From a virus: a stretch of DNA of 37,852 bases. Below are positions 1-35,900 of the stretch, piece by piece. A program made the position numbers and the translations under genes. The first letter of the stretch is position 1; the number at the start of each line of letters is the position of its first letter. The notes below the pieces were generated by a model, which was given only the letters and a program-made list of their open reading frames with translations, was not told where the DNA came from and searched no databases. The stretch is from positions 1-37,852 of IMG/VR virus record IMGVR_UViG_3300048011_000833. One strand, given 5' to 3'.

Positions 1-277
1 GAATTTTAAAAGGAGTTGAGTTTTCTTTGTTTTTCTGTGTGCAAAATTCAGCAAGAATGTCAAGTGCAGCATTGACTTCGCTGTCACTGTCCATGGTGTT
101 GTATTGTCCATAGCGTTCAACACGGTTGGGAGAACCTACATAAACATCAGGCAAGTGACTGCTGTAGTTTGCTGCCGCTGGGCCCATTCCTTGGCCTTTT
201 GTTAAACTAAATGGCGAATAACTTCCGCCGGTGTTTGCTGATGTTGGTACTGGTGTAAAATATTTTTTCCAACTCAT
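1..277 (-). CDS. 20: Portal vertex protein gp20, N-terminal part (runs off window)
   Basis: The dodecameric portal forms the head vertex through which DNA is packaged and to which the tail docks. Translating the minus strand from the ATG at 277-275 gives 92 residues, starting MSWKKYFTPVP and containing the stretch SSHLPDVYVGSPNRVERYGQ followed by an acidic segment and ALDILAEFCT. This arrangement, including the S-E-V-N-A-A-L-D-I-L-A-E helix, is characteristic of T4-type portals near the N-terminus. The gene continues beyond base 1, so only about a sixth of a typical portal (about 520-560 residues) is visible. Its start overlaps the stop of the upstream tape-measure gene as ATGA, which suggests translational coupling and a shared late transcript. 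The family assignment is by recognition of the N-terminal motif, not by a search. Confidence 0.88.
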   Translation of the reverse strand, partial: MSWKKYFTPVPTSANTGGSYSPFSLTKGQGMGPAAANYSSHLPDVYVGSPNRVERYGQYNTMDSDSEVNAALDILAEFCTQKNKENSTPFKI

Positions 278-2700
278 GCCATTAAATCACTTCCCAATTT
301 TTTTATTCCTCTAGCAGTTCGTTCCTGGTGTGCCACACTCTGTGACATTAAGTCTCGAATCTGCGCTGTAAGTGTATTTAGCTGGTTAATAGCACCTGGA
401 AGGTCGTTCACGGCGCCAGCTTCGCTTGGATTGAGCACACGCTCACCTTTGTGGATTTGAGCAACAGTGTCGCTCGGTTCTGTAGTTTTTCCTGTTGCTT
501 TAAGTGTTCCAACACGTCTTACTGGTAAGCCTTCGGGTACAATTACATCTTGGCCTGCGGCTCTAAGTGCGTCAATTGCTGCTTGAACTGTGTCTACTTG
601 TGCTCCGACTGGGGCAATTCCGTAGCTTAACTGACTTTGCATACTAGCAATTCCTGTTTCTACCTTTTCTTGTAGCTTTGATGTAACACTTGCTGCATCA
701 CTTTCGCTGAGTCTGCCTTCTGCAAGACCTCTAGCTTCAAATGCTTCTCGTTCTGCTTCTAATCTTGAGTTGCTTAATATTCCAATTTTGCTGTCAATTG
801 CTTCTTGCAAACTAAGCATCAGTCCTTCAAAGTAGTAGCTGATTGTACTCGTAAGTCGTTGTCCAGTTTCTGAATTAAAGAAACTGTTCAACCCGTCGAT
901 TAGTGCATTTCCTATTCTAGTACCAAGACTGTCTCCTGCTTCGTTGGGAGGAAACAACTTGTCCATAACTTGTTCAAAAATACTTTTTCCTGCTGTTGCC
1001 GAATCTTCAAGACCAGCAAGTTCATAAAATTTATCTCTTGCAGCTGTCATCAAACGTGAGAAGCCATTAGAAATAGTTTCAATTAGGCCGCCTTCTCTGT
1101 AAAATTCAGGACCTTCGTTGACTTCTCTGCCCATGAACATATTAGTAAACCAGTCTTTTAATTGTTTTCCTAGTTCGCCTGCACGTTCTCTCAGGTATTC
1201 CATTGGAGACTGTCTATTTACAGCGTTTGGCGATGTAGCTGCTGTGAATGCTTCAACTTCGCCTCTTATGGTGTTTGTAAGTTTTGTCAAGTATCCTTCT
1301 GGGCCAGTTAGCTTGTTGACTACTGCACTTATGCCATCGCTCAAACTACCAAATGCACCGCCTGCAACATTGCCGTCTTTTGAATTAAACAAACTACTAA
1401 GAGCTGTTCCTAAACTAGTGCTAAGTGCAGACATACTTTTGCCAAACTCGCTGTTGATAATAGCATCAAGCACATTGGTTTTGACTTGTTGTAGTTGATT
1501 GCCAAAGCTGGTCAAGAAGTCTGTGACATTTTCTTGGGCACTCTGTTGTTTAGCAGCAGCCTGTGGATCAATATTTTGCATTGATCTAAATGCTCCTAAA
1601 CTATCAAATAATGCTCCAAGAGGATTGCCTTCTAGTGCTCGTTGCGTGCCTCCTGTAAATCTGTTGAGTGCATCGGCTACTTCCGGCCCTGCTTGCTGAA
1701 TAGCTGTCAAGAATTGTTCGTCAGTCATACTACCTGCATTTTCAAGAATGCCTGCAAACTTTTGTCCAGCTTCGCCGCTTGCCATCAACCCTTTGTACAA
1801 ATCACTCATGCCGCCTTCGCCGCCTGCGATCAATGAAAGATCATCTGCAAACTGTGGTCCAAGCATTTGAGCAATAGTTCCAATGTTTTTACTTAAATTA
1901 TCTGCACCGTCTGCACTTGCACGAGATAGCAATGCTTGAAACTTTGCATTGTTTCCTAATGCTTGTTGTTGCTCGAGCAGTGCGTCTCTACTCAGTCCTG
2001 TGGCTTTTGAAAGTTTGTCTATTTCAACTAGATAGTCTTGACTGCCTTTGATTAGTGCTCGATCTGACATACCTTGAAGTCTACCCTGCAATGCTTGCAC
2101 TTGAATATAATTCATCAAGCCATCGTTTACATCGCCAATGGTAAATCCTAGATCAAACAATCTATCACCGAGATCTCCTTGGCGCATTGTTCTACTGAGC
2201 TGTCCAAACTCTTTTGCACCTTGAGTAACTGTCCCGCCCAGCATTCTCAACACTTCGCTGTTGTCTTGAACCACTCGATAAAATTCGTCCATGCGCATTG
2301 CACTCATACCTGCGGTTGTCATCATGTCAAAAATACTGTTGTTGAATCCTGCACCTACTTGACTTAGACTTCTAAACTGATCAACATTGTCGTCGAGGTA
2401 TTCAACCAAGTTTTGTAATCTGCTGCTGGCTCCAAGAATGTGCCCGCTGAAGTCACTAACCCTATCTCCACCAAAAACAAATTCTTTTGTAAGTCCTTTG
2501 ACAGCGCCAGTTGCTTTTGCCAACATTGATGCTTTTTCTTTTTCAGCTTTGTTGCTTGTTTCTACCAGTCGTTGGCGTGTTCTAGCAGCCGCAGTTGCAT
2601 TTGTGGAGTTTTGTGTAGTTGCTTCTAGCAGTCTTTGAAGTGTAACTTCGCTGGCTACGCCGCTCCTGCCGCCTACATTTTTAATTTCAACTTCGTCCAA
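274..2700 (-). CDS. Probable tail tape-measure protein (808 aa)
   Basis: Tape-measure proteins set tail length and sit inside the tail tube until DNA ejection. The predicted product is 808 residues, largely alanine-, glutamine- and leucine-rich and apparently helical. Near the C-terminus (about residues 750-761) it carries HKGERVLNPSEA, a motif I associate with the C-terminal end of many tape-measure proteins. T4 gp29 is 590 residues. If a helical tape follows about 1.5 angstroms per residue, 808 residues would imply a tail of up to about 120 nm (inference). The start is TTG at 2700-2698, with a weak AAGAG-type ribosome site just upstream. A CATAAATA late-promoter match lies 57 bases upstream. 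The gene is divergent from the gp26-like gene and its frameshifted partner, which fits the tail-chaperone idea, and its stop overlaps the portal start. An alternative is another large helical virion protein. Confidence 0.68.
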   Translation of the reverse strand: MDEVEIKNVGGRSGVASEVTLQRLLEATTQNSTNATAAARTRQRLVETSNKAEKEKASMLAKATGAVKGLTKEFVFGGDRVSDFSGHILGASSRLQNLVEYLDDNVDQFRSLSQVGAGFNNSIFDMMTTAGMSAMRMDEFYRVVQDNSEVLRMLGGTVTQGAKEFGQLSRTMRQGDLGDRLFDLGFTIGDVNDGLMNYIQVQALQGRLQGMSDRALIKGSQDYLVEIDKLSKATGLSRDALLEQQQALGNNAKFQALLSRASADGADNLSKNIGTIAQMLGPQFADDLSLIAGGEGGMSDLYKGLMASGEAGQKFAGILENAGSMTDEQFLTAIQQAGPEVADALNRFTGGTQRALEGNPLGALFDSLGAFRSMQNIDPQAAAKQQSAQENVTDFLTSFGNQLQQVKTNVLDAIINSEFGKSMSALSTSLGTALSSLFNSKDGNVAGGAFGSLSDGISAVVNKLTGPEGYLTKLTNTIRGEVEAFTAATSPNAVNRQSPMEYLRERAGELGKQLKDWFTNMFMGREVNEGPEFYREGGLIETISNGFSRLMTAARDKFYELAGLEDSATAGKSIFEQVMDKLFPPNEAGDSLGTRIGNALIDGLNSFFNSETGQRLTSTISYYFEGLMLSLQEAIDSKIGILSNSRLEAEREAFEARGLAEGRLSESDAASVTSKLQEKVETGIASMQSQLSYGIAPVGAQVDTVQAAIDALRAAGQDVIVPEGLPVRRVGTLKATGKTTEPSDTVAQIHKGERVLNPSEAGAVNDLPGAINQLNTLTAQIRDLMSQSVAHQERTARGIKKLGSDLMA

Positions 2701-2777: not shown

Positions 2778-3635
2778 ATGGAAAACGTCTCTAACAACCC
2801 GTTAGCAAAACACTTTAGACAGCCAAAGTTGTTTATTAGATTGCCCAGTAACGGTGCTTACTACCCTGCTGGTACGTTTGAACCAACTGAAAACATGGAG
2901 TTTCCAGTTTACCCAATGACGGCAAAAGACGAAATACTTTTTAAAACGCCGGATGCACTGCTCAACGGACAGAGCATTGTTAGTGTGATTCAAAATTGTG
3001 TGCCAAACATCAAGAACGGATGGATGGTGCCCAGCATTGACATTGATGCTATCTTGATAGCTATTCGCATTGCCACTTACGGCGACACAATGGATCTAGA
3101 ATTTAAAATTCCTGAGACCGATGAAGAACGTGCATATGAAATCAAACTCACTCCGCTGTTGGACACACTCACAGGTCAAGAGTACGATTCTGTGATCACT
3201 CATGGACAGTTTACATTTGAAATTGCTCCGGGCAATTACAAAACATTCACAGATCAAAGTTTGAAAACTTTTGAAGAGCAAAGACTGTTTAGAACTGTCA
3301 ACAATGACGAACTAGACGACAAACAAAAGTTGGAAATTTTCAATGAGAGTTTTGGACGCCTAACAGACATCAACATCGGTACAATCTTCAACCAAGTGAA
3401 AAGCATCACAGTAGCAGGTGAAGATCCAGTTACCAACCCAGCACATGTTAGAGAATTTTTAGACAACGCTGACACACATGTTTACAAACTATTGCTGGAC
3501 CACATTGATGCACAGCGTCAAAAATTTCAAATCAAACCTTTTGAAATCACAACAACCGAAGAGGATCGTGCAAACGGAGCGCCTGAAAGTTTTCAAGTTC
3601 CGTTCACGTTTGATCAAGCAAATTTTTTCGGCTAA
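2778..3635 (+). CDS. 26: gp26-like baseplate hub/tail assembly protein; zero-frame product of a frameshifting pair
   Basis: The 285-residue product belongs to the T4 gp26-type baseplate family. The N-terminal stretch RQPKLFIRLPSNGAYYP and the following PMTAKDEILFKTPDALLNG are the family hallmark. T4 gp26 is 208 residues, so this one is longer. T4 gp26 acts in hub assembly and is thought to help mount the tape-measure protein. ATG at 2778 follows GGAG with an 8-base spacer. The gene ends in a run of six T at 3623-3628: codons AAT TTT TTC GGC TAA contain the slippery heptamer T TTT TTC immediately before the stop. A -1 slip there would replace the last residue and stop with the 76 codons of the next ORF, giving a fusion of about 360 residues. 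Identification of the family is firm; the frameshift is inferred from sequence. Confidence 0.85.
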   Translation: MENVSNNPLAKHFRQPKLFIRLPSNGAYYPAGTFEPTENMEFPVYPMTAKDEILFKTPDALLNGQSIVSVIQNCVPNIKNGWMVPSIDIDAILIAIRIATYGDTMDLEFKIPETDEERAYEIKLTPLLDTLTGQEYDSVITHGQFTFEIAPGNYKTFTDQSLKTFEEQRLFRTVNNDELDDKQKLEIFNESFGRLTDINIGTIFNQVKSITVAGEDPVTNPAHVREFLDNADTHVYKLLLDHIDAQRQKFQIKPFEITTTEEDRANGAPESFQVPFTFDQANFFG

Positions 3636-3664
3636 GGATCTTGACATGGTCCATTGACGAGATC
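3623..3664 (+). promoter_or_regulatory. Programmed -1 ribosomal frameshift signal (slippery T TTT TTC plus stem-loop)
   Basis: In the gp26 frame the heptamer T TTT TTC occupies 3623-3629 and fits X XXY YYZ. Seven bases later a 7-bp stem pairs 3637-3643 (GATCTTG) with 3658-3664 (CGAGATC), including one G-U pair. Its 14-base loop can add a short inner ATG/CAT stem. Slip site, spacer and stem therefore have canonical geometry. The -1 frame has a stop at 3611-3613, just upstream of the slip site, and is then open to 3859. The zero-frame stop is at 3633-3635. The stem covers the TTG at 3641, the only upstream start of the small ORF, which further argues against separate initiation. Not tested experimentally here. 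Confidence 0.72.
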
Positions 3665-3859
3665 ATGGAAGAAGTTAAGGTCCTGGAAAACAGTGTAAAG
3701 CAATTTAAATTTGATTTGAGTAGACTGTGTTGGTACATGAGAGGTGGACTAACACTCAGCGAAGCATACGAGTTGTCACACGAGGACAGACAAGTGATCA
3801 GTCAGTTGATAGAAGACAACTTGGAGACTGCCAAGAAAACCGGGCAGCCATTCTTTTGA
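3641..3859 (+). CDS. Small tail-assembly chaperone-like ORF, probably made as a gp26 fusion
   Basis: The ORF gives 72 residues from the TTG at 3641, or 76 extra residues if entered by the -1 slip at 3629. It is mostly helical with a CWYMRGGLTLSEAYELS core, then a charged helix ending TGQPFF. No strong family match is known to me. A short helical ORF with a W-x-x-x-G core reached by frameshift and placed beside a tape-measure gene resembles the lambda G-T and P2 E-E' tail chaperone arrangement. Independent initiation looks poor: AAGGA is only two bases from the TTG, and the next in-frame ATG, at 3665, has only a weak GAG upstream. Its stop (TGA, 3857-3859) abuts the stop of the convergent gene at 3860 with no spacer. 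The function is an inference from context. Confidence 0.72.
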   Translation: MTWSIDEIMEEVKVLENSVKQFKFDLSRLCWYMRGGLTLSEAYELSHEDRQVISQLIEDNLETAKKTGQPFF

Positions 3860-4492: not shown

Positions 4493-4525
4493 GTGATTAA
4501 TCCTTAGTTGTAATGTTGTTATAGT

Positions 4526-4533
4526 TATTTATA
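4526..4533 (-). promoter_or_regulatory. T4-type late promoter, perfect TATAAATA
   Basis: On the minus strand these bases read TATAAATA exactly, the T4 late promoter -10 element recognised by gp55. It sits 34 bases before the ATG of the 210-residue ORF, giving an expected start near 4519 and a leader of about 27 bases containing the AGGA ribosome site. It is the best late promoter match in the window and supports gp55-dependent late transcription. Confidence 0.72.
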
Positions 4534-4559
4534 CATTTATGATGAACTAACGTTCATCA

Positions 4560-4592
4560 GTGTTATCGCTATCGCTCAACACATGTTTTTTT
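4560..4592 (+). terminator. Possible weak terminator (stem plus T7)
   Basis: A 5-bp stem GTGTT/AACAC (4560-4564 with 4578-4582) with a 13-base loop is followed by seven T at 4586-4592. It could stop plus-strand read-through from the gp26 pair before the RNA locus. The stem is weak and the site overlaps the -35 of the promoter at 4576, so the T-run may be incidental. Confidence 0.25.
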
Positions 4593-4604
4593 GTTTTGTA
4601 TAAT
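4576..4604 (+). promoter_or_regulatory. Sigma70-like promoter for the candidate RNA
   Basis: TATAAT at 4599-4604 is a perfect -10. It is preceded at exactly 17 bases by TCAACA (4576-4581), four of six matches to TTGACA. The expected start, about 4611, coincides with the first base of the 5' stem-loop of the RNA candidate. Confidence 0.5.
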
Positions 4605-4610
4605 TAGAAG

Positions 4611-5039
4611 TGATTTACTATATGAAGATTCATTATGACGTATGTCATAATGTTTAAGTTTCATGTAGATCGTTTCAGTCAGACGGAACCTGTTACGGTC
4701 CCATCTTTCTCAAAGAAAAACTTCATGTGAGTCTTATCCAGCCGAGAACTTGGAAGTAGGTGTTTTCTGCTACACAATGGGCTCTGACCTTTCCCAACCT
4801 ACGTCGACATCATGACAACATGCTTTTGTAAAACAACACGTTGATGTTATTTTACAGAATGCATGTTATCACTACCTCTCGCTTCGTTCCTAATGCTAAA
4901 GAGTTTTTATGTGTAATGTGCAGTTTTTCGACAGCCAACAATCTATCTACGTCAACCTATTAGCCCAATTTGTTTGATGGCTTCCTCACAGTGGTGAGTC
5001 GATCAACGTGTTACGTGTGCTTCTATACGAGAGCTTTTT
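4611..5039 (+). ncRNA. Candidate structured non-coding RNA, about 430 nt
   Basis: Helices seen by eye, in order. A 10-bp helix pairs 4618-4627 with 4659-4668 and encloses a perfect 9-bp hairpin, 4631-4639/4644-4652. A 5-bp hairpin lies at 4672-4676/4685-4689. A long-range CCCAT/ATGGG pairing joins 4700-4704 to 4777-4781, extended by GGT/ACC. A hairpin of about 23 bp spans 4814-4870. A three-way junction is formed by 4928-4932/4998-5002, 4933-4941/4970-4982 and a hairpin at 4985-4998. The region 4835-4845, at the loop end of the long hairpin, is perfectly complementary over 11 bases to 5002-5012, allowing a pseudoknot or an alternative fold. More G-U pairs are gained on the plus strand than on the minus, and a promoter precedes it. 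No known family was recognised; the strand is not certain. Confidence 0.42.
5019..5039 (+). terminator. Weak intrinsic terminator candidate at the RNA 3' end
   Basis: GCTTCT at 5019-5024 can pair imperfectly with GAGAGC at 5029-5034 (including G-U pairs and one mismatch) around ATAC, followed by five T at 5035-5039. It is placed where the candidate RNA should end. The stem is weak, so efficiency is doubtful. Confidence 0.3.
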
Positions 5040-5072
5040 CCACAGCGGTGTTTATAAACTGGCCCGCCAACC

Positions 5073-5522
5073 TTATGTGTTGGATTGCTTTGCCTGGATG
5101 TTGTGTTCTAACAATGCCTGTTTGAGTTTGTCTGATCCGCCTACTCTAACATTGATGATACCATTGTAGTATTCATCCGTTTCAAGCACCCGCCTGTCAA
5201 ATTGTTCTCTTGCCTCTATGTAGGACATTTCGCCTCTACCTTTACATAGGTATAATATTTCTCTTGTAAACTTGTCTTCGCCTAGTGCAGCAATGTCTGC
5301 GTTCAGTCTATCACTGGATCCCCAGTAAGTACGCCAATCGCTTTCTTTAGTGCCGCGTCTTTTGTTCTTTTTGCCTTTTAAAGGTGGCTTAGTAGTTTTA
5401 AATCTTGCTAGTTTTTTGCCTATGTACTTTTGATTGTTAGTAAGGTTGGTGATAAGATAAACAAAACCTTCGTACTCGTCTGGTATTTCAGTTATTTCTT
5501 TACCTTGATATGTCCAACTCAT
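5073..5522 (-). CDS. GIY-YIG nuclease-like protein, 149 aa
   Basis: The protein has a GIY-YIG-type layout. FVYLITN at residues 20-26 stands for the GIY strand and KYIGKK (YIG at 33-35) for the second motif. A basic lysine-rich insert follows, then SDWRTYWGSS (61-70), an FTREILYLC segment and YIEAREQF (101-108) holding the expected catalytic glutamate. Such small proteins are common in T4-like phages, where relatives act as free-standing homing endonucleases or repair-type nucleases. I cannot tell which applies here. It is the last gene of the gp47-gp46 operon, starting 7 bases after the stop of the preceding ORF with only a weak ribosome site, so coupling is likely. The candidate structured RNA lies just beyond its stop, on the other strand. 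Confidence 0.7.
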   Translation of the reverse strand: MSWTYQGKEITEIPDEYEGFVYLITNLTNNQKYIGKKLARFKTTKPPLKGKKNKRRGTKESDWRTYWGSSDRLNADIAALGEDKFTREILYLCKGRGEMSYIEAREQFDRRVLETDEYYNGIINVRVGGSDKLKQALLEHNIQAKQSNT

Positions 5523-8615: not shown

Positions 8616-9446
8616 TTATTTTTTGTTTGCAGCATCTTCACGTGCTAGTGCTGCTTCCCATTCTCCGCTGTGCAACCTGGTATAACTAGGATTCAAGTCA
8701 TTCATTTCGAGAATATCGTCTCGAATGTTTTGATTACGCTTTTCTAAATTGATAACACGTACAAAACTGTTGGTAACTGCGGCTGTGTAATATGCAAATG
8801 GGTTTTGACTTTTAGATTCGTCAAATTGCAGTCCAATTTGCGATAATTGAAGGATTGCTTGTCCTTTCATCTCGTCGTTGTAGGTGTATCCACGCACATT
8901 TCCACGAGTTGCATAACGATCTACCAGCTTCATCCACATGCGAGCAAGCTCATTGGTTGCTGTAGCATGATCAAGGCTGAAGTATCCGTTTTCCATACCA
9001 CCTGTCCAGTGACTTTTGCCTACACAAATCAAATTGTCGTCTTCGTCGTACTTGAAATGCTGGAATGGTGGAAAAGGCAGCTTGACTTTGTGATCTGCAA
9101 CAGTCTTTGGGTTCTTTTTACGTCCGGGCTCATCTGGAATATGATCAAACGTCATAACTCTAAAAATTAATTCAGTTTTTTCAATCGTTTTGTAATCAAT
9201 TTCGCAATCTGCGACTTTTACACGCTTGCCTGCTGCTTTGGCTGCTTCATATGCAGCTTGCGACAGTTTTTTTGCTTTGTTTTTCTTGGCTTCTGCAACA
9301 CTATTTCTATTAATTTTGTCTATGTCTAGCAAAATAATATCGTAATTTGCAAACTCTGGTTCAATAAAACTGCTGTAATTTATTTTGCTTTTGTGTATCT
9401 CTGCCAACATGTCTCTGTTGTTGAGATATTTTACTCGTCTAGCCAT
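8616..9446 (-). CDS. 55: Late-transcription sigma factor gp55, enlarged
   Basis: gp55 is the divergent sigma factor that directs host RNA polymerase to phage late promoters. The N-terminal RVKYLNNRDMLAEI matches the YVNNKELL start of T4 gp55. The main sigma region lies at residues 163-245, including RGYTYNDEM, QFDESKSQNPFAYYTAAV and VINLEKRNQ, the sigma region 2-like core. T4 gp55 is 185 residues. Here 276 residues include about 130 inserted between residues 20 and 160, made of an Ala/Lys-rich helix and a segment with PFPPFQHF and HWTGG. The C-terminus ends REDAANKK and shows no hydrophobic sliding-clamp-binding tail like T4's. The ATG is preceded by AGGAG at good spacing and a consensus host promoter. 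It is transcribed divergently from the late baseplate run. Confidence 0.87.
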   Translation of the reverse strand: MARRVKYLNNRDMLAEIHKSKINYSSFIEPEFANYDIILLDIDKINRNSVAEAKKNKAKKLSQAAYEAAKAAGKRVKVADCEIDYKTIEKTELIFRVMTFDHIPDEPGRKKNPKTVADHKVKLPFPPFQHFKYDEDDNLICVGKSHWTGGMENGYFSLDHATATNELARMWMKLVDRYATRGNVRGYTYNDEMKGQAILQLSQIGLQFDESKSQNPFAYYTAAVTNSFVRVINLEKRNQNIRDDILEMNDLNPSYTRLHSGEWEAALAREDAANKK

Positions 9447-9519: not shown

Positions 9520-10377
9520 ATGGGATTATTTAATTTTCTTGACACAGTATCTGAAAACATAAACAATTTTCAAAATGTTGTACAAAAAGCAAGCAACTTT
9601 GTTAACATTGTTCGCGACCCTGCTCAGTTGATGAGCAATATACGTAGCAGAAGCCTGCCAGCAGGTGCAGTTCCACAAAAAAGAGCAACGTCAACTGGTA
9701 GCTTTGTCAAAGCAGATAGTCAAGATGGCGAAGATTGGCGTGTGAGGATACATATGCCAGCACAGCCCAGCAGCTTTGAGCAATCTCCGCTGTTGCAACC
9801 GCTGGTTAAGAGTAACAGCAGCATGGTGTTTCCTACAACTCCGCAAATACTTGTTACTCACAGTGCAAATTACAATATGTTTCATCCAATCCACACAAAC
9901 TATCCTTATCCTGTTTATGAAAACAGCATGGTCGAAGATATTACCATCAGCGGAGAGTTTCCTGTTGAAAACGAAGCAGACGGCTTGTATTGGATAGCGG
10001 CTGTGCACTTTATGCGAAGCGTTACAAAAATGTTCTATGGCGAAGGCGATCTGCGAGGACATCCGCCTCCAAGATGTGCATTAAGTGGATACGGCGACTT
10101 TATATTTGACACAATGCCAATTGTAGTAAAGATGTTTAGTATCGATTTGCCCAACAATGTTGATTATATCAAAGTTCCAATAAACGCATCTAATTTGCAA
10201 AGTGCATTTCCGCAATCTGCAATCAAAGGCCAGACATATACATATGTACCGACACTAAGTAGTATTAATATTACTGTAGCACCTGCATTCAGCAGAGATG
10301 CAACAAGACAATTTAATCTTACTGACTTTATCAACGGAAATTATGTTGGTAACCCAGGAAGCGGAGGGTTTATTTAA
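9520..10377 (+). CDS. Baseplate tail-tube cap/initiator protein (gp48/gp54 type)
   Basis: In T4, gp48 and gp54 sit on the hub and start polymerisation of the tail tube. The 285-residue product has a middle region with HFMRSVTKMFYGEGD, then GHPPPRCALSGYGDFIFD, then MPIVVKMFSIDLPNNVDYI. I associate this block with the tube-cap/initiator proteins of marine T4-like phages. T4 gp48 is 364 and gp54 320 residues. I cannot decide between the two; gp48 is somewhat more likely because gp53 follows directly. The ATG at 9520 follows AAGGAG at a good distance. The stop overlaps the next start (TAATG), so the downstream gene is coupled. Confidence 0.72.
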   Translation: MGLFNFLDTVSENINNFQNVVQKASNFVNIVRDPAQLMSNIRSRSLPAGAVPQKRATSTGSFVKADSQDGEDWRVRIHMPAQPSSFEQSPLLQPLVKSNSSMVFPTTPQILVTHSANYNMFHPIHTNYPYPVYENSMVEDITISGEFPVENEADGLYWIAAVHFMRSVTKMFYGEGDLRGHPPPRCALSGYGDFIFDTMPIVVKMFSIDLPNNVDYIKVPINASNLQSAFPQSAIKGQTYTYVPTLSSINITVAPAFSRDATRQFNLTDFINGNYVGNPGSGGFI

Positions 10378-19920: not shown

Positions 19921-20364
19921 ATGAGCACATTAGAAAAAAATCTTTATAAAAACTTAAAAGTTAGTTCTCCAAAAACCAACACTCAGCCTATTGTTGACAA
20001 AAGTTACAAAGGCATTAGTACAGTTAGAAAAGATACCAAAAACTTTCGTTTGAGAAACATTGACCTGATCAAGCAAGACATTGTCAATCACTTTCATATT
20101 AGAATGGGAGAAAAACTAGAACGTCCTGACTTTGGTACAATAATTTGGGATGTGCTGTTTGAACCACTAACTGACAGTTTAAAAGAAGCTATTACAACTA
20201 ATGTAAATCAAATTATCAATTATGATCCTAGAGTGCAAGCCGAAGAAATAGTTGTAGACAGCTTTGAAAATGGCATACAATTGTACTGCACATTGACATA
20301 TCTTGACTACAATATCACCGAGCAATTGAGATTTACTTTTGACCGAGACAACGGTTTGATTTAA
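19921..20364 (+). CDS. 25: Baseplate wedge protein gp25
   Basis: gp25 is a small conserved wedge component related to the sheath initiator of contractile tails and type VI secretion. The 147-residue product has the family block RNIDLIKQDIVNHFHIRMGE, followed by ERPDFGTIIWDVLFEPL and a helix, and ends with LTYLDYN and RFTFDRDNG. T4 gp25 is 132 residues. The ATG at 19921 follows AAGG at about 10 bases. It lies between the CHAP-like protein and gp6, matching the T4 pairing of gp25 with gp6. Confidence 0.92.
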   Translation: MSTLEKNLYKNLKVSSPKTNTQPIVDKSYKGISTVRKDTKNFRLRNIDLIKQDIVNHFHIRMGEKLERPDFGTIIWDVLFEPLTDSLKEAITTNVNQIINYDPRVQAEEIVVDSFENGIQLYCTLTYLDYNITEQLRFTFDRDNGLI

Positions 20365-23400: not shown

Positions 23401-23907
23401 ATCAGTGATGAAATTATTTTTCATCCAGTAAAATACAAAGTGTTGTTTGGCACAACTGCTGAAACAGATTTACAAGCAACATTTAAAATTGTTAAAAACA
23501 AAAATAGAGTAGTCAATGACAATGATGTAAAAGCCAGAGTAATTGATGCAATCAATGAATACTTTAGTTTAGAAAATTGGGATTTTGGCGAAACATTTTA
23601 CTGGAGTGAATTGAGTGCGTATATTGTAAAACAAATGTCTCCAGACATTGTGAGTATTGTACTTGTTCCGGTAAGTGGCCAAAGCAGTTTTGGCAGTTTG
23701 TTTGAAGTAAAATCTGAAAGCAACGAAATATTAATCAGTGGTGCAACAGTAGCAAATACAGAAATCATCACAGCAATTACTGCCGATAGATTAAAAGCTC
23801 AAGGTGCAGTAGTTACATCAGTTTCGAGCACAGGAGAAGTAATTCAAAGTGCAGCAGAAACAATTACAATTTCGACAGGTACGTCGACTAGTGAAGGATA
23901 CAATTAA
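20416..23907 (+). CDS. 6: Baseplate wedge protein gp6, enlarged (1163 aa)
   Basis: gp6 forms the inner ring dimers of the baseplate wedge and belongs to the baseplate J family. The N-terminus has FDTLRRTMINYIRLNYPED, followed by a segment ending SEYLALIDLIAFLGQN and ARENFIELADRRESVLRLAR, the clear gp6 signature. The C-terminus has ARVIDAINEYFSLENWDFGE, a J-like wedge domain feature. T4 gp6 is 660 residues; this one is 1163, the extra length being strand-rich middle domains. I chose the ATG at 20416 rather than the GTG at 20410 because GAGG is 8 bases before the former and only 2 before the latter. The stop overlaps the next start (TAATG). The late promoter CATAAATA lies 24 bases upstream. Confidence 0.9.
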   Translation: MSATDRQNKLLLAEDWQTIYQSFKYADFKSYDFDTLRRTMINYIRLNYPEDFSDYIESSEYLALIDLIAFLGQNISFRTDLNARENFIELADRRESVLRLARLISYNPTRIQPANGLLKVVSVQTSENVIDSNGVNLSGRNIRWNDSVNDNWFEQFIKVLNGAYTQENKFGTPRKSELVAGVRTEKYNFNTRSNVFPVFGFNKSINGKSMEFEIVSTDIADGEIVESSPGLGKPVGMLYRDNGQGAGSSNTGFFMHFRQGSLQKAEFTVSLPTPNQTIDLDSANINNQDIWLYQLDRNTQEQTLWTKVDAVEGNNIIYNSVAKNERNIYAVQTRANDRASLIFSDGVFGELPKGNFRAFYRTSENADYTISPNEITNIKLSIPYVSATGNNETLVMQLSLKQTVANAASSESTESIKTNAPSTYYTQNRLITGEDYNIGPLGISQDIIKTKAVNRTSSGINRYYDLKDTTGKYSTTNLFGTDGVLYKEYRDEKHNFSFNTRTDVEAVIENLVTDIIADNNTKNFFADQFIDQDYNDLQLAFKQQTSETNSSTGFLLDSDQLAEVDPQYYALGDFTQGPLRFVQANTLVKFVAPEGKHFMPDGTLMNGAANHIGATTYIWTKVVAIRNDGTELDDITNSGPIVFSDVVPSGAILDKVKIKYTRDILTSVKQDMIDQVFAYRTFGLRYDRESRNWLVITQNNVNITDSYNIGLAGDTSGQNLDRSWIILFETNGIDYTITTRTLRYIFESQKEIRFYFDSNKKIYDSKTGNIVRDKISVLNINTDLLSAGQTSPFTVNFDWAISKEYRDDIGYINSKKVEVVFFDEDDDGVVDNPQIFEDIVSPDSVDFDKKYVFVKKYTEFDTEYYKYVPQADDNIVVVQAYRSINSSRVNNPIYYVIDTDSFWQVTTATRKVEQVFDYKAFVGRDDLKFQYVHAADENNRIDPASSNIMDTYVLTRQYDTAFRQYLKGTVTNAPLPMSSDQLYRSYGKEINAIKSISDEIIFHPVKYKVLFGTTAETDLQATFKIVKNKNRVVNDNDVKARVIDAINEYFSLENWDFGETFYWSELSAYIVKQMSPDIVSIVLVPVSGQSSFGSLFEVKSESNEILISGATVANTEIITAITADRLKAQGAVVTSVSSTGEVIQSAAETITISTGTSTSEGYN

Positions 23908-26900
23908 TGGCATACGATAAAAATCAAAACGATTTTCCATTACCAGCTGGACAAAACCCAGAAAGAAAATCCAGCAATTTTTTGCCAAAATATTTTAGAA
24001 CTGATGCAAACAACAAATTTTTACAATCTACAGTAGACCAGTTTATCAACGAAGGTGTTGTAGAAAAATTAAATTCATTTGTCGGAAAACGCAGTGCTAA
24101 AGCTAGAATTCCTGCAGACACTTATCTAAGCGATGTATCTCCTGAAAGAGAAAACTATCAGTTTGAGCCAAGTGTTGTATACAAGGACGAACTTGACAAT
24201 TTAAAATTCTTTGCTGATTACAATGATTATATCGGACAAATACAAAATTTCAAAGGCAACATTGCTAACCAACGTATTTTAAATCAACAAGAATCTTATA
24301 GTTGGGATCCTAGTATAGATTGGGACAAGTTTAGCAACTTTAGAGAATACTATTGGCTACCGATGGGTCCCCTTCCAATTAAAGTTGCTGGACAAAATGA
24401 AAAAGTAACCAGTACATACAATGTAGAAACTGTAGACGATGCTGGCAGTGTGTCTTATGTGTTTTTTCCGGACGGGCTTACAAGAAACCCAACAGTTGAC
24501 TTGTACAGATCTCAAGAAATTCGTATAGAAATCAACACTCCGGGATTTCCTTTTGCACTAGCAACATCGAGAGATTTTGACGATAACGATCCTTTATTGG
24601 GTGTAGATCAACAAAACAACAGCGTCTTGTATACCCAAGGAATTAAAAAATTCAAATATGACGATGTTGGTCAACTTGTAGAAACAGATGACGAATACAT
24701 TGAAAACGGTGTAATTTTGTTCACTCCTGATGAGGATACTCCTGATGAATTGTTTTACATCAATCAGCGAGACGTTAACATCAGTGGATTAATAAACATA
24801 TATTACATAGATGAAAACAGTACCATTGATGTTGAAAAAGAAATTCTAGGAAAGCGCGATTACACCACAAGCCGCGGCATAAAATTATCAAACGGCATGA
24901 AATTGTATTTTGTAGGAAATGCATTACCAGAAAAATACAACAGCGGATATTGGTATGTTGAAGGTGTAGGAACAGCTATTAAGCTAGTCAACGAAAACGA
25001 CTTAGAAGTTCCTGCGGTATTTACAAGTTTGGAACCTGTTCCGTTTGATAATAATGCATACGGTTATGATAGATTTCCATACGAAGATGCTGCAAGCTAT
25101 CCAGCCAACAAAGATTATATTACAATAAACAGATCCAGTGCTGACAGAAATCCGTGGAGTAGATACAACCGCTGGTTCCACAAAGATGTAATCGAAACCA
25201 GTGCAAGAGAAGTAGGAGTAGAGCCTGAGCTAAATCAAGATGCAAGAGCAAAACGTCCTATTATAGAATTTGATGCAGGTCTTAAGTTGTTCCAGCACGG
25301 AAATGTTGCAAAGCAAAATGTTAATTTAGTAGACACAACTACAAAAGATGTGTTTAGTACAATCGAAGGATTGGAAGGATATATTGTTGACGGCGTAACA
25401 CTAACCGACGGCATGCGCATATTGTTTACAGCAGATACTGATGCATTAGTAGCAGGAAAAATTTACAAAGTAAACTTTATTAACTTTGGACAAGAAACCA
25501 AAAAAAGACAAATCAGTTTAGTAGAAGAAACAGACAGCAATCCTCAAGAAGGCGAATGTGTGCTTTCACTGGCAGGAAACTCTAATGCTGGACAAATGTT
25601 CTATTATTCAAACGGCAAGTGGAATGCAAGTCAGAAAAAAACACAAATAAATCAATCACCTCTGTTTGATTTGTTTGACAAAGAAAAAACTAGCTTTGCC
25701 GACGAAATAGCATACATTGCTAGTTCTTTTGCAGGAAATAAAATTTTTAGTTATGCAACAGGCACAGGAAGCAATGATGTTGAATTAGGGTTTCCGTTGA
25801 AATATAAAAATATTGCCAACGTTGGAGATATTGTTTTTGACTTTGATCTATTACAAAAGTCGTTTACGTATCAAGATAATTTACAAAATCAATTCGAAAA
25901 AACAACAGATGTAGGATTTGTAGAAGTTTACAACAGTGTATCAAATACAATTTCTTATAAAAATGCATGGACTAAAACTGTTGACAACGAATTAACCAAA
26001 CAAGGTGTTGTTAGATTATATGAAAATCAAAAAAACAATTTTGAAATTGATGTATATGAAAATCAGTCCTTGCCTGTATACGAAAAAGTTTATGTAAACG
26101 GTGTAAAAAAATACAAAAACAAAGACTACGTTGTAGTTGACGGTATTAATTTCAAAGAAGTTAAATTCAACAAAGATTTGTCGGTTGACGATCTAGTGGT
26201 TATAAAAAGTTATTCGTTGTCCCCTAAAAATCAAAATGGGTTTTATGAAATTCCTCAAAATTTGGAAAGCAACCCTTTAAACAACAACGTATTACAATTT
26301 ACATTAGGTGAAGTTAACAGTCATGTAGAATCAATTGTTGAAAACAATTCTGCATTTGAAGGAATTTATCCAGGACCTAGCAATCTTAGAGATCAGAAGT
26401 TTGTATCACAATATGGTACAAGATTTATGCAGCACAGCGGTCCTGCAAATCTTGCGATATATCATATCACAAACAAAACTGCTAATGTAGTCAAAAGCAT
26501 TGAATTTGCAAGTAAAGAATACAGCAAATTCAAGCAACAGTTTATCAAAGAATCAGAATTAACTGGATTTCACGGCAGTGCTGCAAAGCATGTTGATATA
26601 ATAATGAACAATTTAAACAAAGACAAGAATCAAGATTTTTCTTTCTTTGCTAGTGACATGGTTGCATACAAACCTAGCGTAACAACTGTTCACACTATTG
26701 AATACAACGGAGAAGCATATTTTGCACTATCTGAAAGTTTTGATTTATCCACACTAACAAATCAAGCAGTGTATGTGTACTTGAATGAAGAACATTTGAT
26801 TTACAACATTGATTATGTATTTGAAGACGGATTTGTAAAAGTTACTCGTAACTTGGTAGAAGACGATGAAATTACAGTAATCGAATACAACAACACAAAC

Positions 26901-29900
26901 GGCTGTTATATTCCACCAACTCCTAGCAAACTGGGATTGCTTCCTAGCTTTGTACCAGAGCAGTTTGTATATACTACAACCTCTGGAAATACTGTTAACA
27001 TGATTAGATGTCACGACGGTAGTATGACAAGGGCGTATGACGATTATAGAGATGAACTGATTCTTGAATTAGAATTGCGTATTTACAACAATATCAAATC
27101 ACTTTATAATGCAGACATTTTGGACTTTTATGATTTCCAACCTGGGTATTCGAGAAACACAGGCATTAGCAAACAAGAAATCGATTCAATCCTGCTAAAA
27201 GATTTTAGTAACTGGCTGGAAAAAGCCAGTAACCCAGATTACAGTGATTCCAGCTTCTGGGATAATTCCAATGCATTTACCTACAACTACAGCAACAGCA
27301 CAGATTTAAATGGCGTGCCGTTGCAGGGTTCTTGGTACAACATTTACATGCATTATTTTGACACTTCTAAGCCGAATACTCGTCCTTGGGAAATGCTGGG
27401 ATTTGATACTGCTCCTACATGGTGGGAGTCGCAGTATGGACCTGCTCCGTATACCAGCAACAACACCATACTTTGGAATGACTTGCGTGACGGTTTAATT
27501 AGAGAACCTGGCAAAGCTATTGTTATCAACAAGAAATTTGCAAGACCGATACTCAACAAAATTGTTCCTGTAAACGAATACGGTCAGTTGATTGATCCGT
27601 TGGAATCGGGATTGTGCAAAAACTTTGTGCTGTTGGAAAGCAAGCAAAGTTACAAGTTTGGTGATCAAGCACCTGTTGAAAGAGCATGGAGAGAAAGCAG
27701 CGAATACAAGTTTGCACTTCTCAAAGCATGGACGCTACTACAGCCTGCTAAACTATTAGGCACTGGGTTTGATATCAGTAGAATGTCAAGAGACCTTTCT
27801 GGCAACATAATTTATACTCCAACACAAAAAAGAATCCGCACTGAAGATTTGCTGTTTCCTGATGTATCCGGCGAAAGCAACAGCAGTGTTCACACCAGTG
27901 GATTGGTTAACTATATTGCAAATTATGTAAAATATACCAAAGCTGGAGAGTACGAAAACTACAAAACAGAAGTTAAAAATCTCAACAATCAGTTGAGTTT
28001 TAAATTGGGCGGATTTGCCGACAAGACCAAACTAAAATTAGTATTAGACAGCAGAAGTCCTTTGAACAAAACAAGTGTATTTGTTCCTGATGAAAACTAT
28101 GACATATTCTTAAACACCAGTAGTGTACAAGATACTCCTACGTTAAGCGGTATTATTATTGAAAAGTTAAACAGTGGAAAATATCTAATCAAAGGCTATG
28201 ACAAAGAAAATCCAGTGTTTACAATAACTCCTGCAAAACCAACACAACAAGATTCTGCAATCACAGTCGGCGGAGTAAGCGACGATTTTGTTACATGGAA
28301 CGAAGGCAAAACCTATAGCATTGGCACTATTGTTGAATACAACGGAACATACTACAGAACAAAGATAACACATCAAAGTACGGAAACTTTTGATAATGGA
28401 AAATTTGCCAAACTAGCCGAGCTTCCAATCAAAGGCGGCCAGTCTGCAATTATTAGAAGAAACTTTGAAACCAACACCGTGGATATTCCTTATGGAACAC
28501 AGTTTGCTAATGTTCAGGAAGTTGCAGACTTTATGCTAGGTTATGAAAATTACCTAAAATCTCAAGGATTTATTTTTGAAAGCGTAAATCAAGAATCTGC
28601 ACAAGTAGAAGATATGAAATTGTCTTTGCAAGAGTTTTTATTCTGGGTAACACAGAACTGGGAAGTAGGAACAGTGCTAGCAGTAAGTCCTGTTGCAAAC
28701 GAAGTTAAATTTGCAAGAGATTATTATACTGTTGACAACATCTACGATCCATTTTATGAAACAACCATCCTAACAGGCAGTGGTCAAATATTAGGACCAG
28801 AGTTTAATAATGTATTTAGAGACCGAGACGTTGATTTTAGTTTGCGTCCTATTGCTACCGATGGCGGCGTGTATCTTATCAAATTGCCCTTGGTGCAAAC
28901 AGAGCATGTTGTATTAATTGACAACCAAACCGTCTTCAATGATACTATTTACGATCCAACTGCTGGTTTTAGGCAAGAAAGAATCAAAGTTGTAGGGTAC
29001 AGAACCGATGGATGGACTGGTAATTTAAATATTCCAGGATTTATTTACGATCAAGCAACTGTAACTCTTTGGGCACCATTTACAGATTATCCAATCGGTA
29101 GTCTTGTAAAGTACAAAGAATTTTATTATAGTTCTTTCAACAAACACACCAGCGGAGAAACATTCAACGACGACAACTGGAGAAAATTATCTCAGCGTCC
29201 AGTGTCTCAAATACTTCCTAACTGGGATTATAAAACAAACCAATTTGCTGACTTTTACGACTTGGATACAGACAATTTTGACACTGAACAACAGCGTTTA
29301 GCACAGCACTTGATTGGCTATCAGCCAAGAGAATATCTTGCTAATATTATCACAGACAGTGTTAGCCAATACAAATTCTATCAAGGATTTATCCAAGAAA
29401 AGGGAACTAAAAATTCTCTTACAAAACTTTTCGAACCGCTAAGTGCTGCAAACAAAGACAGCGTTGAGTTTTACGAAGAATGGGCTATTAGATTAGGACA
29501 GTACGGTGCTATTGACAATCTAAGAGAAATTGAGTATAGATTAGATGAATCAAAATACAAGTTGGAACCACAGGTGTTTGAACTTACGGATAGTATAAGT
29601 CAAACTAGACTTGATCTAGCAATCGAAATTCCAAAAAGCACTGTTTATAAAAAACCAGCTGATTACGATCATACTATTGTTCCTGCTCTCAACAGCAACA
29701 AAACATATACCAGAAACACAGGATATGTTAAAAACGACCAAGTATCTTATGTTATTACCAATTGGGAAAACATATTAGATGTTGATATCAACACACTAAA
29801 TGTTGGTGAAAATATCTGGATAACACAAAATGAACTGAATGTTTGGGCAACTTACAAGCATGTTAGATCTGACTTAGTTGTAGAATCTTATGCAGCTTCG

Positions 29901-32900
29901 ACATTTGAAGATATTGACACAGTTGAAGTTGTAGTAGACGGATATATCAAAGATATCAGTGTTGACGATTATGTTGGAATCTTAGCACCAAACTTTTCAG
30001 GGTTTGCACAAGTAATTGATGTAAATTTAAACAAGCTACAATTAATCGGGCTGCCAACACCTCCAGCAGTTGAAGCTGACGATAGTACAGAAAATCCATA
30101 TGCAGATGCTTCTATTACTAAATTTGTAAACAGAAGATATACCAATGTTGATGAATTGGGCAACAATGTTACAAACATTGAAAAAGACAATGTTGACACA
30201 GTTTGGTTGGACGACAACGGCACAGGAAACTGGACAGTTTACGAAAACCGCAGTGTGTTTGATCTATCAAGAGAAATAGGCAACCAAGAAGATATACTAG
30301 GATTTGCAGAAAGTTTTGATGTCAACAAAACCAACACTGTGTTAGCAGCAGGCAATCCCAGAAAAGAAGAACTTACAATCTTTACAAGAACAAACAACAA
30401 GTTTGATTTTAGAAATATCACTTATATTTCGCCAAATGATTCGCACGATGTTGGGTCAGATTACGGAACAAGTGTTGCAGTATCCCCGAACGGTTTAACT
30501 ATTGCAGTTGGTGCTCCTTTGGCAAGTAATGTAATAACAAGGTTTGTAGGACCACTTGAACCTGGCGTTGCATACAGTGCAGGTGATATTGTTTCTGACA
30601 GAGGAACACTGTGGCGTGCAAAAAATGACATTACAACTTGGGAAGACCCAACAGGCGACAGCAGTACTATTTCAGTTAATGACCAAGATTGGGAACCAGC
30701 CTATATGATTACAGCAGGCGAAGGTGTTTCGTCTGGATTTGCAAATCAAGGTGTAGTCTATGTTTATACCAAAAATCAAGTCACTGAAAATTACAATTTA
30801 GATTTTGTACTTTCAAGTCCTGATCCTAAGTCAAATGCATTGTTTGGACAGCAGATTAAATTAGCACAAACCAGTTATGGCAGTACAAAGATGTTTATTA
30901 GTGCTCCAGGAGACGACACTGGTAAAATATACTTCTTTGAAAAACTCGATGAATGGCAGTGGTCTAGAAACACTGCTTACAAAGACATATACAGCGATAC
31001 AGCAAAATACAATGTTGGTGATATTGTGTTTTATAATAACAACTTATATGAAGCATTGACAACTATAGCACCTGGCAGTGCATTGCCTACAGATACTACA
31101 AAATGGCAATTAGCAGAACCGATTGAGCACACTGGTTATGTTCCAAATCGTGCACACGAGCTGGACGGCGAAATTATTGATCTCAACAATATGTCAAACT
31201 TTGGATACGATTTTGAAGTTAATGCATTCGGCGACAAACTGGTTGCAGAATCATATGACAGCCAATCTCGAAAAGTTATCAATGTATACAACAACATCAG
31301 CACACGTTGGAATTACATACAGCAAATAACTGAAATCACAGAAAAAACTGAGTTTGGTTATTCTTATGACATCAACGATGACGGCGATATTATTGCTATA
31401 AGTGCGCCTCTTGCAGACGAAAAAGGCACAGACAGCGGCAGTGTTTATGTGTACGAACAAGGTGCAGACAACACATACAGCTTGAAACAAACTGTCTACA
31501 GTCCGTTCAATGAACAAAATGAAGTGTTTGGCACCAGTGTAAAATTCAGCAACAACAAATTGGCTATTGTTGGCAAAAACACTGACATCAAAAACTTTAC
31601 AACATTTGATTTGATTGATGAAGACAATGTCACGGTGTTTGACAACAGCAACACAAAGTTTTCAACAACAATTGAAGACGCAGGACGTATACTGTTATTC
31701 CAAGAAATTGCAAATAGATTTGTGTATGCAGAAGACATTGATTACAGAAGAGATCTAAGCAACTTCAGTTTGGAAAACTTTAAGATTAACAACGGCCAAA
31801 TTTTCTTGAGTTTGCCGTTCTATGCACCAACACAAGATCGTCAACCGACTACCGATGGCAATTATATAGTGAGCAACAACAAAGGTTTGATTGCTGAAAT
31901 TTCCACAGGAACCAGCAAAGACACTTGGTTGCCAATTGCTGAACAAGTGGATAGACCAGACATCAAAAAAATCGATCAGGTGTTCTTGTACAATATTGAT
32001 TCTCAAGACATCACACAAAAACTTGATGTAATTGATCCAAGATTGGGTAAAATTGCCGGACCGGCAGAACAGGAAATTGCATACAAAACTCCATATGATC
32101 CTGCAACATACACAGAAACAGATGGGTTGCAAGATGTAATTGTAGATTTTGGCAGCAACTGGACAGACAAACAAGTAGGACAAGTTTGGTGGAACATTGA
32201 TCGTGCCAGCTGGTACGATGTTTACCAAGGCGAAACAAGCTACAGAACTGCAAACTTCAACAAGCTCGTACCTGGCTATGAAATTCAAGTGTGCGAATGG
32301 GTAGGCACAGATCTTACTCCGCGAGAATGGAGAGCACAAACCGGTACTGCTGAAGGATATGCCGCTGGTGTTAGTGGCGTACCGCTGTATGAAAACACAT
32401 ACAGTGTAAGAAGAAAATATGACTCGGTTAAAAAACAATTTAAAAATCGCTACTACTATTGGGTGCGCAACACAGAAATTGTTCCAAACATTGGATTTAG
32501 ATCAATTAGTTCTCAGTCAATTGCACAGTTGATTGCAGATCCTGCATCAACAGGATACAAGTTTGCAATTATGCTGGCAAACAACAAATTTGCATTGTAC
32601 AATTGTAAGAGTCTTGTAGAAGGTACAAACACTGTAATTCAATTTAGAACACAGTCAGACGAAACACTGACTGCAAACATACACAGTGAATATCAGTTGC
32701 TTTCTCAAGGATTGGATCTTAGTATTCCTAACAGAGACATTGAATCAAAGTGGCATGACAGTTTGATTGGGTATGACATTTTGGCAAACCCTGTTCCTGA
32801 CAATACACTTCCTGAATCACAAAAATATGGTATCTTGAATTTACCAAGACAAAGTATGTTTGTAAACCGTTTGGAAGCAGTAAAACAATTTGTTGATAGA

Positions 32901-35900
32901 GCTAATGTGGTATTTTTGCAAAATCAAATAGTTGACAATTATGATATCAGCAAGTTGTTGTTGAAAGACATTCCTCCGCAGTTGGGCGAAGGATACTACG
33001 ATGTTGTCATTGACACACAAGAAGACTTGCAATTTGTCGGAGTAGCAAAAACTGAGCCAGCAGTTGTTTCGTTAACAATTGATTCCGGAACAATTACCAA
33101 TGCTGTTATTGTAAATCCGGGTAGAGGATACAAATCACCTCCGATAATTGAAATTGAAGACGCTTATGGAAAAGGCGCAATTTTAAATACTGCAATAGAC
33201 AACTTGGGAAAACTTGTTTCTGTAGATGTACGAACAGGCGGCAACAATTACAGTCAAAGTGCAATTGCTAAGATTAGAAAGTTCAGTGTGTTGGTAAGTG
33301 CTGACACAACACTCGGAGGCATTTGGGCAATATATGAATGGAACAAAGTTTCTCAAACTTGGGATAAGTCTGTAAATCAAAGCTATGATACAACCAAGTA
33401 TTGGAGTTATGCAGACTGGTATGCAACAGGTTATAATTCAAACACTGTTGTAGATTACACAATTGGCCAAAGCTATGAACTGTTTGGTCTTAACAATACA
33501 ATTGGTGATATTGTAAAAATCAAAAACATCGGCACCGGCGGATGGTTGTTGCTTAAAAAAGTTGATGACCAAGACACTGAAGATTACACAGTAAACTATG
33601 ACACTGTTGGACGTGAAAACGGCACAATTCAACTAAATGATTTGCTGTACAATTATAGTTCTGAAACAAGCGGATACGATGCAATTGCATATGATACTGC
33701 ATTTTATGACAAAGAGCCTGTCCAGGAGCTGAGAAATATAATTGATGCTATTAAAGAAGATTTGTTTGTAAGCGATCTGACAGTAGAATACAACGAATTG
33801 TTTTTTGCAGCACTGCGTTATGCACACACAGAACAGCCAAACATTGACTGGGCATTTAAATCTAGCTTTGTTAGAGCAAAGCACAACGTTGGCGATCTTG
33901 TGCAAAAAATAACTTATCAAAATGATAACCTTGAAAACTACCAAGATTACATTGAAGAAGTCAAGCCGTACAAAACAAAAATTAGAGAGTACATCAGTGC
34001 ATACAGCGCATTAGAGCCAACCGGTAGTATGGTTTCTGATTTTGACTTGCCACCAAGTTATATCAATGGCAGTATTAAGCCAAGTATTGCAAAATATGCC
34101 AATAATACCATCACTCAGTTGTATGACGATTACAGTGCAGCACCTTACAAAAATTGGGTAGACAACAACAAGTTTGACATTATTAGAATTGATATAGCAG
34201 CAGGCGGCAGCGGATATTTAGAAACACCGTCAGTTGTTATTGATGGCGATGATGCTCCTATCTTACGTGCTTATCTTGCAAGAGGAAAAGTAAAATCTAT
34301 TGAAATCGAAACTGCCGGCAAGCAGTATTACACTGCTCCTGAAGTTAAAATCATAGGTCAGAGCACAACACCTGCAAAAGCAGTTGCTATACTAGGAAAT
34401 GGTTTAGCAAGAAGCACCCACATGGTAATACGCTTTGATAGAGTTAGTGGCAAACGCTATATAGAAAACATCAACTCTATTGAAACATTTGCCGGCACAG
34501 GCGCAAAAGAAAAGTACATGCTAAAATGGCCACTCAATGTAAAAACAGATAGCTACACAGTTACTATTGATGGCATTGAACAATTAAGTGGAACATACAC
34601 AGTTGGTAACGATGTTGATTTTAGTCTAGGACACGAGCGTTTCTTGGGATATGTTGATTTTGTCAATCCTCCGGCTAATAATTCTGTAGTAGTTGTTAAC
34701 TATCAAAAAGCAACCAGCATGTTATCAGCTGCTGATAGAATATTCACTGAATATAATCCAACCAGCGGAATGCCTGGAATTTCTGAATCTGGCAGTCTTG
34801 CAAGCCTAATGAAAGGCGTTGAGTACGAAGGCGTTCTTTATGATTCGTATGCATTTGGCAATGAGCAAGGTTTCGGACAAGGCGGCTTCGGCGATCTTCC
34901 TTTTGATACATTTGTAAACACATTTGAAGATGAAGTAATTGTGCTAGATGGCAGTACTAATAGAGTGCAACTTGCAGAGCCATTGGAAGCAGGTGTTACT
35001 TACAACGTATATCTAAATGATGTTAGACTAGACGATGCCAACTATGATGGAAGTTCAATTGTAGACAATACAAATGCTATTATGGCATCCATTGAAGGCG
35101 ACGGAGTTATTGATTATATTGATCTCGACAACGACTTGGTACAAACCGCAGACGGAGATGTATTGATTGTGCGTAAGAGCACAAGTGACGGCAGCTTTAC
35201 TCCTGTAGGCAGCACATATGACACAAGTCTTGCAGGCGGCTCTCTGGATTACACAACAGCCAGCGGAGTCGGTGCTGGAGAAATCATCATCGACGGCGAT
35301 GGCTTTAGAACACAGGCCAACAGCAGCGGTCCTGAAGAAATGGTTCCGGGTACTGTAATTGATACACTAGACATGAAAGTATATCATAGAGCAACAGACG
35401 GAGTTGGCATTATCAGTGTAGCAAATTACTGGACTGATGCAGAAACGTTTGTTTATGATTTGCCAGGTCAGCCAGCAGATATTGACAGTATTATTATGAT
35501 ACTAGATGGCGAAATTCTTGACAGCACAACGTATTCAGTTGATTATGAAAACAATCAAGTGTATTTTGACGATAGTACCAGCAGTGTTGATGTGAATTTG
35601 TGCATTATTACCATCGGAGTAAATGGCGCAGATTTGATAGATACCCAAACTGTTGCATATGATGGCAACAATATTATACCTACATTGGCAGATTTTGCTG
35701 ATGCAAAAACTGTTGTTGTGCTCAGAAATGGCAGAATACTAGAAAAAGACACAGACTACACAATAACATCTTCAGATAGAAACAAAGCAGTTATCAACTT
35801 AATAGTTGGAAAAGTTATAGGAGACATTTTCCAGTACATGATTTACAATAACACTGTTAAGTCGTTTAGTCAAGTTATTATTGATAAGACATTTAATAGT

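Follow-up and report, generated by a model that had tools for sequence, protein, structure and literature searches.

The window, i.e., the whole stretch of 37,852 nucleotides analysed here (positions 1 to 37,852 of IMG/VR record IMGVR_UViG_3300048011_000833), comes from a marine virus of bacteria. It carries T4-like baseplate genes of the gp53 family (at 10377) and the gp25 family (at 19921) and a late sigma factor gene (8616-9446), and judging by the translations it probably encodes recombination proteins as well. A SegE-type GIY-YIG endonuclease gene (5073-5522, minus strand; PF19835, E 5e-36), whose product is probably a homing endonuclease, lies near the baseplate genes. The ~580 bases between two genes at 4493-5072 hold no convincing ORF or tRNA, and the baseplate cluster closes with a single ORF of 4553 aa (23907-37568, plus strand) that occupies more than one third of the window. 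The features of the gp26-family locus are collected in Table 1.

Table 1. Features of the gp26-family locus (positions in the window).
Feature	Position	Strand	Remarks
Tape measure protein, 808 aa, predicted	274..2700	-	phrog_14121, E 2.8e-7; divergent from the gp26-family gene
gp26-family gene, 285 aa; short product, TAC-N equivalent	2778..3635	+	PF12322
Slippery heptamer T TTT TTC	3623..3629	+	in frame, phase X XXY YYZ of ORF 2778-3635
-1 frame extension, 78 aa (FF to PFF); C-terminal part of the long product, TAC-NC equivalent	3623..3859	+	
Zero-frame stop TAA	3633..3635	+	10 nt past the heptamer start
Candidate stimulatory stem, 5' arm AGGATCTTGAC	3635..3645	+	spacer of 5 nt after the heptamer
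Candidate stimulatory stem, 3' arm GTTAAGGTCCT	3674..3684	+	98.5% of cells paired, compensatory changes

The product of the gp26-family gene scores 32.7 bits (E 7.7e-8) against PF12322, the family that holds T4 gp26, where the cut-off is 24.5, and thus belongs to this family. It also matches phrog_150 (baseplate hub) with E 1.6e-9. The top fold match of its model in BFVD is a 'Baseplate hub assembly protein, bacteriophage T4-like' (E 1.8e-22, TM 0.86), and classical tail chaperones match the model weakly in the fold search (E 0.13 and 0.26). Searches of the PDB by sequence and by fold returned no match. The BFVD matches also include uncharacterised proteins of 500-690 aa from the jumbo phages RSF1, RP12, phiEaH2 and Eowyn, which, based on the models, are possible chaperone candidates in those phages.

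The product of the neighbouring tape measure gene is 26% identical over 293 aa to the syntenic protein of Phosso (BLASTP, E 1e-9), and the RaK2 equivalent is noted as tape-measure-like. The gp26-family gene adjoins but diverges from the tape measure gene in the window, RaK2, PBECO4, Cassandra, Phosso and GAP32. Synteny and the Phosso match thus bear out the divergent tape-measure neighbour that an earlier note on this DNA, made from the letters alone, had assigned to gp26.

The last codons of the gp26-family gene read AAT TTT TTC GGC TAA. The -1 frame is open from 3614 to 3856 and stops at 3857-3859. The earlier note was therefore right in placing a T TTT TTC in the gp26 frame and in describing the -1 frame as open to the end of the small ORF. 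A slippery heptamer in frame towards the end of the first ORF, with the -1 ORF open across it, is a mark of frameshifted chaperone genes of the lambda G/GT kind. TTTTTTC occurs 24 times across the window, where 20.5 are expected, i.e., not above chance. Because its frequency is uninformative, we dropped the heptamer count as evidence, and the evidence is instead its conservation in relatives.

At least 244 relatives of the small ORF were found in IMG/VR, and the best 80 of these all have TTTTTTC in the same phase. Among the six search peptides, one (SKFFRLRI) spans the heptamer site but leaves both Phe codons unspecified (TTY TTY); the remaining five are located away from it. The heptamer is likewise in phase in all 80 sampled cyanophage-type loci and is present in seven isolated jumbo phages (Atu_ph07, Phosso, Cassandra, RaK2, Vibrio 2.275.O, SCTP-2 and PBECO4), whose gp26 proteins are 24-33% identical to that of the window. 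It is also found in GAP32, Munch, XaC1, phiAS5, IC12, Aeh1, EniLVp02, K571, OLIVR5 and S-ShM2. The proteins of heptamer-bearing relatives diverge by up to ~75%. Variant sites occur in RL38J1 (TTTTTTG) and in RAS14, XacN1 and pf16 (TTTTTTT), and the heptamer is missing from Mutine, Cygsa01 and K469; slippage is thus not obligatory for the family.

Across 174 junctions, which form 65 clusters below 85% identity, the heptamer is invariant; in this set only the isolates were gathered by the heptamer itself, and the variant and heptamer-less isolates are the exceptions. The codon that precedes it varies over the 65 clusters (AAT, AGT, GAT, CAT, TCT and others) while the heptamer stays constant. Compared over sequences with the same amino acid, the two Phe codons and the codon in front of them are 100% fixed, whereas synonymous sites at other positions of the last 40 codons show identities of 25-83%. 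At the Phe-Phe pairs away from the junction in these gp26 genes, TTTTTC is used least often (2 of 35). A naive codon-choice calculation gives a probability of 10^-56 for this conservation, a figure that assumes independence, ignores common descent and is not to be taken literally. The zero-frame stop lies 10 nt past the heptamer start in 45 of the 65 clusters and 13-40 nt past it in the remainder.

In the window, the stem AGGATCTTGAC/GTTAAGGTCCT has 11 bp, a spacer of 5 and a loop of 28. The minimum-energy fold, whose outer helix it forms, reaches -20.2 kcal/mol, a lower value than in any gp26 control window. Among 12 relatives, chosen because they have the stem, 98.5% of cells are paired and seven cells, in two pairs, are changed on both sides: pair 16-59 is seen as A-U, G-C and C-G, and pair 18-57 as C-G, U-A and A-U. 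None of 500 shuffles reached the observed pairing or covariation score. In 40 unselected marine clusters the same stem positions pair best of all offsets (68% against a baseline of 37%). Based on a simple contiguous-helix test against codon-shuffled controls, a helix anchored 4-6 nt past the heptamer, with loops of 5 to 78 nt, is significant (p<0.05) in 35 of the 65 clusters and reaches p of about 0.01 or below in 28; the other 30 clusters have no significant stem by this test. The earlier note had suggested aligning the junction across relatives and looking for a conserved X XXY YYZ, spacing and stem, and the 174 junctions, together with the stem in these 35 clusters, provide just that. The letters of the window also permit a different hairpin named there, a 7-bp stem at 3637-3643/3658-3664. 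In the 12 relatives, however, just 75% of its cells are paired and it shows no covariation beyond shuffles; it was ruled out as the stimulator. Cyanophages have a stem of other sequence, typically AGTATGGCTCA/TGAGTCATACT, with the same spacing and weaker covariation, and in one further marine group the 3' arm lies more distant. In the cyanophage-type loci (L104-L183), the ATG of an ORF annotated 'baseplate hub assembly catalyst' lies inside the stem 5 nt past the heptamer. Because of this position, the cyanophage stem could serve to favour slippage and also to mask the start.

The -1 frame beyond the gp26 stop bears the marks of a protein-coding sequence. Differences 3' of the stop are distributed over codon positions 1, 2 and 3 of the -1 frame as 32, 19 and 49%, so that third positions are favoured. 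The AlphaFold model of the extension (pLDDT 89) is predicted to contain helices at residues 2-8, 11-40, 45-49 and 53-73. Structure modelling used sequences of the window and of IMG/VR loci. Pfam and PHROGs yielded no significant family for the window's small ORF, and a BFVD fold search with the small domain gave nothing significant; phrog_18291, a family with no assigned function, is matched by six relatives of the small ORF. No joined gene is called at the gp26/small-ORF junction among the annotated isolate records examined.

In T4, gp26 and gp51 both match PF12322 and are adjacent, divergent genes. A virtual fusion of the cyanophage/phiAS5 type, read through the junction, aligns with T4 gp51 from end to end (hhalign, probability 99%, E 4.7e-19), and at the junction GLSDFFRLTLVNDSIYDLF aligns with DIVDVFKLLVNPDEIFTFY. 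This match supports the reading as a chaperone pair, which the earlier note had proposed by likeness to lambda and P2. The window-type fusion matches the cyanophage-type fusion with E 3e-18; its match to T4 gp51 is weaker (probability 74.5%, E 2.7e-5), and that of the small domain alone is weak (29%). In addition, phrog_150 includes both T4 proteins; of the two, only gp51 reaches its C-terminal part, with which the -1 ORFs of Sf-FS3 and phiAS5 also align. On these sequence comparisons, the long product is the predicted counterpart of T4 gp51 and the short product that of T4 gp26. The T4 paralogues gp26 and gp51 would then equal the short and long products, so that T4 uses two genes where the lineage of the window slips.

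The small ORF could instead be a separate gene, translated either from a start of its own or by ribosomes that terminate and reinitiate at the gp26 stop, with no slippage at all. Annotators usually call it on its own; cyanophages keep an ATG just past the gp26 stop, two codons after FFR, so that slippage and an own start are both possible there; and in Cygsa01 (TAATG) and K469 an ATG belonging to the small ORF shares bases with the gp26 stop. In L095 (Cygsa01) and L196 (K469), two of the three heptamer-less genes (the third is L194, Mutine), this overlap suggests that translational coupling took over from slippage. However, in eight clusters (L021, L033, L045, L055, L059, L071, Cassandra and RaK2) none of the first 30 codons of the -1 frame is ATG, GTG or TTG, which makes slippage the only plain route there. 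In the window the candidates are only the TTG at 3641, whose spacing is too short, and the ATG at 3665, which has no Shine-Dalgarno sequence, so that the absence of a good start claimed in the earlier note holds. A second ORF without a start of its own, behind a signal conserved in relatives, is again characteristic of frameshifted chaperone genes. Moreover, conservation starts at the heptamer, upstream of any start, the cyanophage ATG is buried in the stem, and T4 gp51 is one chain across the junction. We therefore consider a separate gene improbable.

Still less probable is a long form made by transcriptional rather than ribosomal slippage. The site is a run of six T, and of seven in RAS14, XacN1 and pf16, but the run is normally exactly six T followed by C, in one phase, which is short for polymerase slippage; the stem 4-6 nt downstream suits a ribosome, and the site of RL38J1 ends in G. 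The abundance of the heptamer in the window (24 sites) would favour a chance overlap of conserved Phe-Phe codons with an unrelated downstream ORF. This explanation is refuted by the comparison, in which the heptamer is invariant over 65 clusters, the stem spacing is fixed and the -1 frame is coding, and its likelihood is negligible.

Based on the data obtained here, i.e., a conserved signal, conserved -1 coding, a covarying stem and homology, we conclude with a probability of about 0.9 that the gp26-family gene encodes tail assembly chaperones and is read two ways via -1 slippage on T TTT TTC. We infer the slippage itself, its rate and the binding of the tape measure protein by the products. 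Most ribosomes would end at 3633 and yield the short form of 285 aa. A minority, slowed by the stem 5 nt downstream, would slip back one base on the heptamer and read ~76 more codons, giving a long form of ~360 aa with an extra helical domain. Like lambda gpG/gpGT (review: PMC5009743), the two forms may act jointly on the tape measure protein in tail assembly, the common part binding the tape measure protein and the extension recruiting tube subunits. The chaperone function itself is likewise proposed from T4 and by analogy with lambda, and the tape-measure-like neighbour is consistent with it. Weighing against the overall reading are the 30 clusters with no significant stem, the heptamer-less clade, and the weak fold matches of the gp26 model to classical tail chaperones together with its lack of PDB matches.

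The T4-like tail assembly chaperones gp26 (TAC-N) and gp51 (TAC-NC) were reportedly named as such by Vladimirov, Gautam and Davidson in 2022 (Virology 566:9-15). The T4-like chaperones belong to the same family, PF12322, and form the same short/long pair as in the window, but T4 has two divergent genes for the two forms and the window one. Lambda gpG/gpGT (Levin 1993; Xu 2004, 2013, 2014) likewise comprises a short product and a minor -1 fusion encoded next to the tape measure gene; the genes of the window have no detectable sequence kinship with it, their signal is anchored by a stem, and the tape measure gene lies on the opposite strand. In systems of the lambda kind the usual site lies between the tail tube and tape measure genes, in the same direction, an arrangement that is common but not universal and is not found in the window. 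The two products of such systems are made in a fixed ratio, bind the tape measure protein and do not occur in the virion. The slippery site of lambda is G GGA AAG, whereas the window has T TTT TTC. The tail assembly chaperone frameshift of Vandenendeviridae/Andersonviridae (phage Adele), as described in the accessible part of PMC12846349, concerns other phage families and a GTTTTT motif, and that part of the paper reports no stem for it.

The earlier note expected its finding to bring the T4 gp26 family among the frameshifted chaperones, but this step appears to have been made already by Vladimirov et al. 2022, as cited in PMC12846349 and PMC10274946. The former (2025) credits them with poly-T slippery sequences in T4-like TAC-N genes, and the latter, the PRFect paper, cites them for some T4-like phages having a short and a long gene rather than slippage. 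PMC3004832 counts gp26 and gp51 among the chaperones of T4 hub assembly, and a 2016 NAR review (PMC5009743) describes the G-T frameshift as conserved in long-tailed phages 'except T4'. Our literature search for a report of the gp26 frameshift in jumbo phages found none.

In a tree of the shared domain, slippage-type genes lie on both sides of the deepest (midpoint) split. T4-type gp26 and gp51 are joined with moderate support (89/74, long branches) on the cyanophage/Straboviridae side, and the heptamer-less Cygsa01, Mutine and K469 form one clade (99/97). The tree suggests, tentatively in view of its long branches, that slippage is ancestral and was followed by one loss and one duplication. 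In its fullest form, this scenario makes stem-stimulated -1 slippage ancestral to the T4-like superfamily as a whole, RaK2-like and other jumbo phages among them. The clade that keeps the small ORF beside gp26 would have lost slippage, in a single event, and in T4-type Straboviridae a duplication giving gp26 and gp51 would have replaced it. We give this scenario even odds. If true, it would document the resolution of recoding into a pair of genes.

Systems of this kind are thus already known. Added here are members from jumbo phages and from uncultured marine viruses, together with the stem and the tree, which suggests ancestral slippage. The hub/chaperone gene of jumbo and marine phages would have a second product, unannotated in the records checked. 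Reading the junction as a slippage site explains the apparently stray 'gp51' of cyanophages, and the covarying RNA signal opens slippage in the gp26 family to direct testing. The locus would, moreover, illustrate the conversion of a single recoded gene into the T4 pair gp26/gp51.
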